From an uncultured Granulosicoccaceae bacterium (lineage in GTDB: Bacteria; Pseudomonadota; Gammaproteobacteria; CALCKW01): a DNA stretch of 64,000 bases. The translations under genes and the position numbers were made by a program. A model generated the notes under the pieces. It did not search any database, had not been told where the DNA came from, and saw nothing but the letters and a program-made list of their open reading frames with translations. The first letter of the stretch is position 1; each line of letters starts with the position of its first letter. Where the stretch lies: positions 62,001-126,000 of the forward strand of contig CALCKW010000012.1 in assembly GCA_937965695.1 (NCBI GenBank), written 5' to 3'. Of the stretch, positions 60,995 to 64,000 are shown piece by piece.

Positions 60995-61558
60995 ATGCCT
61001 AAGTACGTCAAGGGAAAACTCCATATCGATACAGTTCAAATACCGGGTGTGCCCGGTGTTATCGGTATGTGTTCATGCCCGGGCAGCGGTTATTTGTGGG
61101 GCAGCCACAACGATGAAGAACGAGGTGTGGAAGCGGATCTAGACACACTGCGGGAATGGGGTGCCAGTGGCATTGTCTCGTTTATTCAGTCCATGGAGTT
61201 CCACATGGTGCACGCACCTGACATGGGCCAACTAATCCAAGACCGAGATATGTGGTGGAAACACATGCCCATTCGGGACATGTCCACTCCCAATAAGCGT
61301 TTCGAGGAACTCTGGCAAGAACAATCACCGGACTTGCATAAAAGTTTACTCAATGGTGAAAAAATCGCATTGCATTGCTTAGCAGGCTTAGGTCGTGCCG
61401 GTATGATGAGCGCCCGTCTGATGGTTGAGTTTGGCGTCAAGCCGAAAGATGCCATCACGGCCGTGCGCGAAGCCCGTCGCGGAACTATCCAGACTTGGCG
61501 CCAAAAGTTCTATGTCTCCCGACGCAAGGCTATACCTTCTTTGGTAAACCGAGGTTAG
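60995..61558 (+). CDS. Cysteine-based dual-specificity phosphatase family protein
   Basis: 187 residues. The phosphatase loop HCLAGLGRAG (127-136) fits HCxxGxxRxG/T, with nucleophile Cys128 and Arg134. The general acid is probably Asp95 (PIRDMSTP). It resembles CDKN3/PTEN-type protein or lipid phosphatases. No signal peptide. GGAAA precedes the ATG. It lies 180 bases after the DHH gene, with a terminator between, and is convergent with the pseudopilin operon. Confidence 0.88.
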   Translation: MPKYVKGKLHIDTVQIPGVPGVIGMCSCPGSGYLWGSHNDEERGVEADLDTLREWGASGIVSFIQSMEFHMVHAPDMGQLIQDRDMWWKHMPIRDMSTPNKRFEELWQEQSPDLHKSLLNGEKIALHCLAGLGRAGMMSARLMVEFGVKPKDAITAVREARRGTIQTWRQKFYVSRRKAIPSLVNRG

Positions 61559-61570
61559 TAGAGAACTACT

Positions 61571-62275
61571 TCAAGGTAATTGCTGTGCTCTGAGCATCTG
61601 TGTAAACAAGGCACTGTCAGACAACCACTGCACATGATCGTCGTAGCCACAGTCTGTTGACTGGCTGTAAGCACCTGTGGCGTAGCTTCCGCTGTTAGAC
61701 CGATTAAGTTGCTCTGCATTGCTCGCATTGGTATTTTTTCCGTCAGAATATATAACTGCTACTACATGTGAAGCTCTCAATTGCAGGTCAGAGCAATCCT
61801 TGCCCAGCCAGTGGAATACTTTTAAGTCTCCTTGCAACCGGCTCAAACCCGCCTCTCGCATACCACCACTAGTTGGAAAATCAGCCATCCCGTTTGAATC
61901 ACTATCACTGCTACTGACGCTGTAATCGATCCGTTTAGACCACGGATCAAGTAGCAGAATTTGCGCATCTAAAGGGCCAGCTAAACCTAGGGAAACAACT
62001 GGCAGAAATCCCTGATAGATATCACAGCCAATTTCGTTGAGCGTCTCCGTGCCAGCGCTATCGGCAGAAGCAGGACAAGGCAAACGTCCGTTGCGGGCGG
62101 CAAATCCCAGCAGAGCATTGCGGGCATTCGTTAATTGCAAATCAGCACGACTTTGCATTAACTGCTCGCGGCTATTGAGCAAAGGTCGCATTAAGCCTCC
62201 AATCAAAAGACCCAGAATCACCAAGACAAAGGTTACTTCCAACAGCGTAAAGCCGGAACAGGTATATCTTTTCAT
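61571..62275 (-). CDS. Pseudopilin-type protein with LPCP module
   Basis: 234 residues from ATG 62275, whose ATGA overlaps the upstream stop. An 8-residue prepilin leader ends CSG and is cut before FTLLEVTFVLVILG (+5 Glu13). The globular part (about 51-234) has ARNALLGFAARNGRLPCP, a second Cys84, and VVAVIYSDGKN. It is not GspG-K; the three-gene locus resembles minor pilin clusters of type IV or MSHA-type systems. Cys67 and Cys84 may form a disulfide. Confidence 0.85.
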   Translation of the reverse strand: MKRYTCSGFTLLEVTFVLVILGLLIGGLMRPLLNSREQLMQSRADLQLTNARNALLGFAARNGRLPCPASADSAGTETLNEIGCDIYQGFLPVVSLGLAGPLDAQILLLDPWSKRIDYSVSSSDSDSNGMADFPTSGGMREAGLSRLQGDLKVFHWLGKDCSDLQLRASHVVAVIYSDGKNTNASNAEQLNRSNSGSYATGAYSQSTDCGYDDHVQWLSDSALFTQMLRAQQLP

Positions 62276-63480
62276 GGCACCACACCCCACTGATCATTGC
62301 TAGACTCTGAAAGGCGTGTAGACACAAATAGGTGATCACCGTCCACCGATTGACTGTTATCCAGATAATGAGGAAGGGTTCCTTGGGCTGTACGACTCTG
62401 CTCAAATAGCCCATGCTCTGGAAACTCCAATGCAGCCCCCACACTAACTATTACTGCGTCAACTATTTCGCCATCAAAAACCGGATTTTCGCTAGGTCCA
62501 CATGCGTTATCCCGGTCACTACTGGCGACTCGCAGCCAAATATACCGGTGCCAAAAATTACTCACAAACCAAGAAGGCAAAATGACAGGGTTCTGTTGGA
62601 TACTTGATGTGTCGTCGAAACAACTTTGCTGACCGATTGGGGGCCAAGGATTTTTTCTGAAAAACCGCTCCGAAGCAAACCATCCTCGCCACTGACAGGG
62701 AGAACAAACACTTTCACTGTCTTGTAGGGAAAGCGCAGTGGGTGCCAGCCAGGGCATATGACCATTCGCGGACCTGTAAACCATTAAACTGTCTTTAGCA
62801 GTAGACAACACTCGGCGCTCCACCAAAGGCATTAGATCCCGCCAACGCAAAGCTAAGATCGAGTCATTACCTTGATTAGTCGAAAACACGGCATCCCCGT
62901 CTGCATTTTCTCCTTCAAGATAATTCTCTATAGCATAATTGTCCTTTCTGTTTTGGCCCGGCAACATCGGCCCTGGTGATATGATCAAAGCAATCAGACT
63001 TTCCTCGTCATTCAGCTGTAATTCACCTTCCGTATCGCTATTGACAACAGTGGCACTTTCGATTGCACCAGATGGCGCTGGGTTATAACGAAAAGCGCTA
63101 GAAATAACATACCAGAGCGGTTCATTTGATAATGTTTGTCCAGTGAAGAAGCTTATGTTCTTTTTACCTCCGGCTTCAAAGTCTATCGGCAACAAGCCGA
63201 TAGGTAGCTTTCCACACACAGTCGCCGGACTACCGTTACCATTAGTATCTGGGCACGGCAGATGCCCTGGCCCAGCACCCCGGTCCGAGTAATGACTGGG
63301 ATAATTTACCGAATATTCAATGAGCGCATCACGGGCGACCGCAAGCGCATCTACTTTTTGTTGCTCAGTTTGCTGCAGACTTTCAGACGCTGAAATAGAA
63401 TACATCTGCAGCAAAACTGCCAAAAGAAGCAATACGAATATGGTCATCAACACCGCTGCACCGCTTTGCCGGTATTTCAT
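62272..63480 (-). CDS. Exported pilin-like protein with duplicated LPCP-type module
   Basis: 402 residues. Hydrophobic segment (about 8-28, AAVLMTIFVLLLLAVLLQMY) without a +5 Glu. Two related modules follow. Module 1 (49-217): ARDALIEYSVN, GHLPCPDTNGNG, ALIISPG, NYLEGENADGDAVFST. Module 2 (228-402): AKDSLMVYRSANGHMPW, AVIVSVG, HYLDNSQSVDGDHLFVST. Both match the neighbour pseudopilin. Six or more cysteines. Coupled by 4-base overlaps on both sides. Function unknown, likely a tip or anchor of a pilus or pseudopilus. Confidence 0.85.
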   Translation of the reverse strand: MKYRQSGAAVLMTIFVLLLLAVLLQMYSISASESLQQTEQQKVDALAVARDALIEYSVNYPSHYSDRGAGPGHLPCPDTNGNGSPATVCGKLPIGLLPIDFEAGGKKNISFFTGQTLSNEPLWYVISSAFRYNPAPSGAIESATVVNSDTEGELQLNDEESLIALIISPGPMLPGQNRKDNYAIENYLEGENADGDAVFSTNQGNDSILALRWRDLMPLVERRVLSTAKDSLMVYRSANGHMPWLAPTALSLQDSESVCSPCQWRGWFASERFFRKNPWPPIGQQSCFDDTSSIQQNPVILPSWFVSNFWHRYIWLRVASSDRDNACGPSENPVFDGEIVDAVIVSVGAALEFPEHGLFEQSRTAQGTLPHYLDNSQSVDGDHLFVSTRLSESSNDQWGVVP

Positions 63481-64000
63481 AAACGAGCTTCCCTAATAGC
63501 GACTTTTCCTAAGCGGCACTGCAATCGAAAATCTGTGTGATCAGCGTGATTTATTCTTTCTTGCAATCGGCAATACTGCACAGAAACATGACTTCCTAAA
63601 GACTCACCTAATAAAGTGATTGCGTTCACTGCTTGAGAAGCTTCGAGAACCGTCAATTCCAGATCAATAGGCGTTACGAATAACTCATTATTTTCATGTT
63701 TTCCCAGTAACTCAGTCTTGTCGACCAAAAAACGAGCACTAAAGCTCTTCAGCGAGTCGTTTCTAGAGACCTCTTGTCGTAGCTCTGACAACCAATATTC
63801 TGGCGAGTATTTTTCAGCTAAAGGTAGGTGACGAGTGCTCGTAAGTAGCCGCAACCGCTGTTTAAGCCGCTGATCCAACAAATGGGTGTCAGCTAAAGAG
63901 ACATCCACCTGCTCCGCCACACCTCGTATATCTAGCCTATTTTCTTTCAGATTTTGCCAATGTAAATAACAATAGCCCGACAATATAAATACAAGCAGAA
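63477..64000 (-). CDS. PilO/GspM-like bitopic protein, N-terminus beyond window
   Basis: At least 174 codons; the frame stays open to the right edge. Codons just inside the edge read LLVFILSGYCYLHW, a membrane helix, so the start lies outside. After it comes a charged helical region (about 70 residues) and a ferredoxin-like end (PIDLELTVLEASQAVNAITL, VSVQYCRL). This layout is like PilO, MshJ or GspM, the platform partner of pilus systems. Last bases overlap the next gene (ATGA). Confidence 0.7.
   Translation of the reverse strand, partial: LLVFILSGYCYLHWQNLKENRLDIRGVAEQVDVSLADTHLLDQRLKQRLRLLTSTRHLPLAEKYSPEYWLSELRQEVSRNDSLKSFSARFLVDKTELLGKHENNELFVTPIDLELTVLEASQAVNAITLLGESLGSHVSVQYCRLQERINHADHTDFRLQCRLGKVAIREARL

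Follow-up and report, generated by a model that had tools for sequence, protein, structure and literature searches.

The pilin operon and its 402-residue protein

The window, a stretch of 64,000 nucleotides, carries the 3' end of an operon that runs on upstream in the wider locus (L009) of the same contig. In transcriptional order the operon encodes an MshL-type secretin, a TPR protein, an MshEN/T2SSE ATPase, a GspF-type platform protein, proteins of 418 and 211 amino acids, a double protein (P0001) and a pilin. The same gene order was present in nearly all complete loci of relatives. The secretin scored 247.2 bits against the MshL model TIGR02519 (cut-off 250.2), which was still its best match. 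The ATPase was recognised as MshE by PF05157 (MshEN; 50.4 bits versus a cut-off of 23.1) and also matched PF00437 with 375 bits. Judged by their positions, the 418- and 211-residue proteins would be the MshI/PilMN- and PilO-like components. The gene for the latter lies directly upstream of P0001 and is cut by the end of the window (63477..64000, minus strand), and it is complete as an ORF at 3477-4112 of L009. Its own copy is too divergent for a profile match, so that the putative assignment as PilO/MshJ-like rests on position.

The window's own locus has no MshM gene, and elsewhere in the genome MshM yielded a weak match only (5.2e-5). Two loci of the same genus, L022 and L024, encode an AAA-type protein at the place of MshM, next to the secretin. 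In the window's genome, the place where same-genus genomes carry the MshM-like gene is held, outside the window on contig 12 (L009:10710-12974, plus strand), by the gene for a 754-residue repeat protein with an F5/8 type C domain, divergent from the secretin gene. The genome contains one prepilin peptidase match (PF06750) on contig 54 and none in the locus; MSH loci without a prepilin peptidase gene have been reported (PMC6668835). A pilin of another family is encoded on contig 51. Convergent with the pilin operon lies a gene for a dual-specificity/tyrosine phosphatase-like protein (60995-61558, plus strand; PF05706 above cut-off).

The gene of P0001 (62272..63480, minus strand) is an ORF with an ATG start that codes for 402 amino acids; it belongs to a family conserved across hundreds of genomes. 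In the protein, a single membrane helix at the N-terminus precedes two modules that are homologous to each other. The leader and the hydrophobic N-terminal half of helix alpha-1 comprise residues 1-42 (63355..63480, minus strand). Module 1, of the LPCPDTNGNG type, comprises residues 43-215 (62836..63354, minus strand), and module 2, in which HMPW replaces LPCP, comprises residues 216-402 (62275..62835, minus strand) and has no membrane segment of its own. The leader is class III-like, with Gly7 in RQSG^A followed by the hydrophobic helix. Neither N_methyl model (PF07963, TIGR02532) matched P0001, and a class III signal peptide was thus not recognised by these models. A glutamate at position +5 was absent from all parsed family members. 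The ORF overlaps its neighbours on both sides, the preceding gene and the pilin gene after it, by ATGA-type start/stop overlaps, suggesting translational coupling.

The neighbouring pilin, named LPCP pilin after its motif, is a canonical prepilin recognised by PF07963 with 24.7 bits, above cut-off (61571..62290, minus strand; 239 amino acids from a GTG codon). The ATG at 62275, which forms an ATGA overlap with the preceding stop codon and gives 234 amino acids, is the likelier start.

Homology of the two modules

The landmarks that the earlier note had listed in the same order for both halves were all found in P0001: A49RDALIEY and A228KDSLMVY, GHLPCP (72-77) and GHMPW (240-244), a hydrophobic strand LIALIISPG ending at residue 170 and VDAVIVSVG ending at 348, and finally YLEGENADGDAVFST at 187-201 and YLDNSQSVDGDHLFVST at 372-388, the spacing being slightly longer in module 2. 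Conserved positions correspond between modules 1 and 2 at L53/L232, P75/P243, G95/G266, G170/G348, Q176-x-R178/Q361-x-R363, Y187-L188/Y372-L373 and N205-D206/N395-D396. The conserved cysteine pairs differ, with C76 and C89 in module 1 versus C287 and C327 in module 2. The loss of the LPCP cysteine from module 2, also noticed earlier, turned out to be a trait of the whole family: a cysteine was never seen at this position, although the search pattern permitted it, and tryptophan is the residue most commonly found after the conserved proline. G266, C287, W304 and W310 of module 2 are invariant in 24 of 24 sequences. In module 1 a conserved D-x-N/D-x-D/N-G loop follows LPCP; it resembles calcium-binding loops and may bind calcium.

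Profile comparison with HHalign, based on 24 homologous sequences, aligned module 1 (43-215) with module 2 (216-402) colinearly over 143 columns (Prob 98.9, E 1.5e-17, score 109.6). With five close sequences alone the match was retained (Prob 95.1, E 3.5e-8). Among 100 column shuffles the top score was 17.5 and the best E-value 0.055, and a reversed profile scored 11.2. The head of the neighbouring pilin (46-239) matched module 1 with Prob 99.6 and E 1.9e-24 and module 2 with Prob 95.1 and E 3.3e-8. P0001 is thus linked to a canonical pilin through this N_methyl protein, and its added module and the pilin head are members of one family. Further matches among the relatives do not depend on self-comparison. 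In L057 (3.1e-10) and L062 (4e-6) the C-terminal module was recognised by an HMM of single-module proteins from another class, and in L045, L056 and L058 the C-terminal end was matched by the module-1 positions of the family HMM (E 7e-8 to 6e-10).

Another pilin family from the same loci (16 sequences) did not match the modules (Prob at most 0.5; 0.3 in one comparison), which shows that the likeness is specific to the family of P0001 and its neighbour and rules out a generic pilin resemblance as source of the score. At the DNA level no direct repeat was found, indicating that the duplication is old. Together with the recurrence of the same architecture in independent genomes, this also ruled out a recent DNA repeat or an assembly artefact.

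The AlphaFold2 model of P0001 (24 sequences; pLDDT 84.9, pTM 0.84) contains a helix at 5-58 and a second, soluble helix at 213-239 that opens module 2. Compared by the order of their elements only, the two halves resemble each other in how strands and short helices follow one another, and unrelated folds are not indicated. The proposal that three modules are homologous and that two of these share one anchor was in this way borne out by the profile comparisons and the model. Foldseek with the two-module model against the PDB returned meaningless matches only, and a single-sequence PDB search with P0001 returned nothing. For the model of the neighbouring pilin (pLDDT 84.3), the first seven Foldseek matches were type IV pilins or GspG, all weak (best E 0.06). 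A pilin-type fold of the modules is hence supported by homology to the canonical pilin and weakly by the fold search.

Distribution and variants of the family

Within the class, taken as the Gammaproteobacteria of GTDB with the Betaproteobacteria included, the family profile matched 81 of 370 genomes; in a phylum-wide draw it matched 23 of 199. Both counts include some single-module forms or matches to the neighbouring pilin only. A pattern scan of named genomes revealed at least 499 relatives. Gallionella, Sideroxydans, Methylotenera, Methylophilus, Burkholderiales and unclassified Gammaproteobacteria are among the matches listed. A search of the genome collection with the P0001 sequence alone returned nothing, the wider family appearing with profiles only. 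The duplication is ancient and widespread and is not restricted to the genome of the window.

Module 2 was present (E 1e-3 or better) in 76 of 80 inspected loci. The remaining four (L123, L152, L153, L155) code for proteins of about 320 amino acids in which it is truncated or (nearly) unrecognisable. Most copies are about 380 to 610 amino acids long and nine reach 867 to 1159, a few ORFs being cut by contig ends. In these long forms module 2 is interrupted by a large insertion that follows its first third, with the helix and PW motif, and precedes its last part; the inserts hold repeats of the type GDxVxNxTDGSxGxV. Tandem repeats of approximately DFxxxGVxxGDxVxNxTDGSxGxVxxVxxxxLTVxxLxGGxxNxF were observed in the inserts of L099, L103, L108, L110, L126, L132, L138, L149 and L158. 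A Pfam scan of four long forms (L103, L110, L126, L132) gave no match in the insert and recognised no adhesion domain. The gene for the double protein is broken in L028 (10185-11442, genome G004), where overlapping ORFs of 290 and 149 amino acids lie in different frames as the result of a frameshift either in the genome or in its assembly.

At this place in the operon, some Gammaproteobacteria (L161-L164) and members of another class of the same phylum (L166-L173) have orthologues with one module, so that both one- and two-module forms, for which the earlier note had suggested a search, exist. The single-module Gammaproteobacteria L161, L163 and L164 may be ancestral or may represent secondary losses. 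A GspE+GspF tree, with low relevant supports and the window's genus on a long branch, fits either. The pilins beside the single-module orthologue in L166-L172 bear long Thr/Ser-rich stalks (TTTTSVPTTTT), mostly followed by a C-terminal Cys-containing domain; examples are L167:8089-9753, L169:3805-5595, L170:5630-7414 and L171:9937-11565. Proteins of this build are stalked modular pilins. Pfam recognised the N-terminal pilin part alone in those of L167 and L171. An ABC-2 type permease, a protein of about 245 amino acids and mostly a GVLKGQ-type pilin recur downstream of the pilins in L081, L095, L101, L110, L132, L156, L168, L169 and L172.

Origin, proposed role and comparison with known systems

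The earlier note had envisaged one gene duplicated into three modules. The homology of all three stands, and the course of events can be refined. Module 2 scored 109.6 with module 1, 90.9 with the single-module orthologues and 55.2 with the neighbouring pilin. Being nearer to the former two, it most likely arose when the globular domain of an ancestor with one module was duplicated within the gene. A fusion with the neighbouring pilin gene, which would alter this explanation in the origin of module 2 only, has a plausible setting, as nearly all loci have an LPCP pilin gene immediately downstream, and L168 has several in tandem. Given the lower score with the neighbour family, it appears rather improbable. 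The neighbour had also been credited with the first two landmarks once. This holds for the window's copy and fails for its family, which bears the third landmark as well (DExENxDxDxxFVS...FDD), degraded solely in the window's copy.

In type IV filaments, the tip complex carries as its cap a subunit that lacks Glu5 (PMC10191384). Since P0001 has no glutamate at +5, it is most likely such a capping, assembly-priming subunit. We propose, with a probability of roughly 60%, that P0001 is the tip-capping minor pilin of an MSHA-like system and displays module 2 at the tip, where it would probably serve adhesion or ligand binding. The leader would be cut after RQSG (Gly7) by the prepilin peptidase encoded on contig 54. 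P0001 could then act as the first and topmost subunit, which primes assembly together with a partner pilin and caps the tip. Module 1 would pack on the filament, and module 2, whose share of the pilin helix is limited to the soluble half, would stand out from the tip and serve for display; in long homologues a large domain is inserted in it. Its likely role would be the binding of a surface or ligand. The lack of a match to any Pfam/NCBIfam pilin model, the lack of a PDB fold match, the weakness of the neighbour's pilin matches, the failure to recognise an adhesion domain in the inserts and the missing MshM in the window's own locus speak against this reading.

A more specific and tentative version regards the double protein as a pre-fused tip-initiation dimer. 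Module 2 would be a covalent stand-in for a separate minor pilin, and the dimer would replace part of the usual four-subunit complex and bear the binding site, some species having large domains inserted. Such a dimer, if real, would let the filament system run with one other pilin gene in the operon. The presence of only two pilin genes in the window's own operon speaks for a rival reading, in which P0001 would be a pseudopilin of a T2SS-like secretion piston, a short periplasmic filament with the double module as its GspK-like tip that recognises a substrate protein. GspK is likewise large and devoid of Glu5, the neighbouring pilin resembles GspG (TIGR01710, E 1.1e-8, below cut-off), and GspG is among its structural neighbours. 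A piston is nevertheless doubtful in view of the MSH-type secretin and ATPase, the lack of a T2SSK (GspK) Pfam/NCBIfam match in all 24 members and the further pilin that often adjoins the operon in relatives. Least probable is a vestigial or neutral module 2 without distinct function, with priming by module 1 alone. The same operon is run by single-module orthologues (L161-L164, L166-L172), and module 2 is truncated or nearly unrecognisable in the four short forms, but its invariant residues, its own motif set kept across distant species, its presence in 76 of 80 loci and its use as site of large domain insertions speak against neutrality.

Minor pilins set where a type IV filament begins and what its tip binds. 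A family in which a pilin domain was duplicated and then became an insertion site is a natural experiment, with one- and two-module orthologues in the same operon place. The role of a second tip pilin module is thus testable in the MSHA-like systems of Gallionella, Sideroxydans, Methylotenera and others.

We regard P0001 as a probable minor pilin whose pilin module has been duplicated. It would belong to an MSHA-like system, a machine of a known kind in which this architecture is new. No described protein with tandem pilin modules was found in the literature searched, which is weak evidence and does not prove absence, and none of the 24 family members matched any Pfam or NCBIfam model. The locus resembles MSHA (MSH) systems, pili of the surface-attachment kind, in the MshL-N-E-G-like content and order of its machinery and in lacking a prepilin peptidase gene (PMC3770913, PMC6668835). 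It differs by a two-module protein that fits no named pilin model and, in the window's own locus, by the missing MshM. Rearranged MSH clusters of unknown function were described in Sideroxydans ES-1 and Gallionella ES-2 (PMC3770913), and loci of both genera are among the P0001-family matches.

The neighbour family shares with GspG a D-x-W-G segment, an Asp/Asn-rich C-terminal loop and weak sequence and fold matches, whereas its score is far under the cut-off (35.2 versus 88.85) and its LPCP motif and size differ. P0001 itself resembles the capping minor pilins of the GspK/PilX type in its hydrophobic N-terminus after glycine without Glu5, its larger size and its position next to a canonical pilin. 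GspK is a single pilin fold with a helical insertion. P0001, in contrast, has two tandem pilin-family modules, and the T2SSK models gave no match. The closest parallel in design are the modular type IV pilins PilB and PilC of S. sanguinis, minor pilins with an extra C-terminal module that are thought to be located at the tip and to present this module (PMC8179133). Like them, P0001 would be a minor pilin with an added C-terminal module. The graft in PilB and PilC is a non-pilin domain (vWA, lectin); the P0001 family, in which no known adhesion domain was recognised, has instead added a copy of its own pilin-family module.
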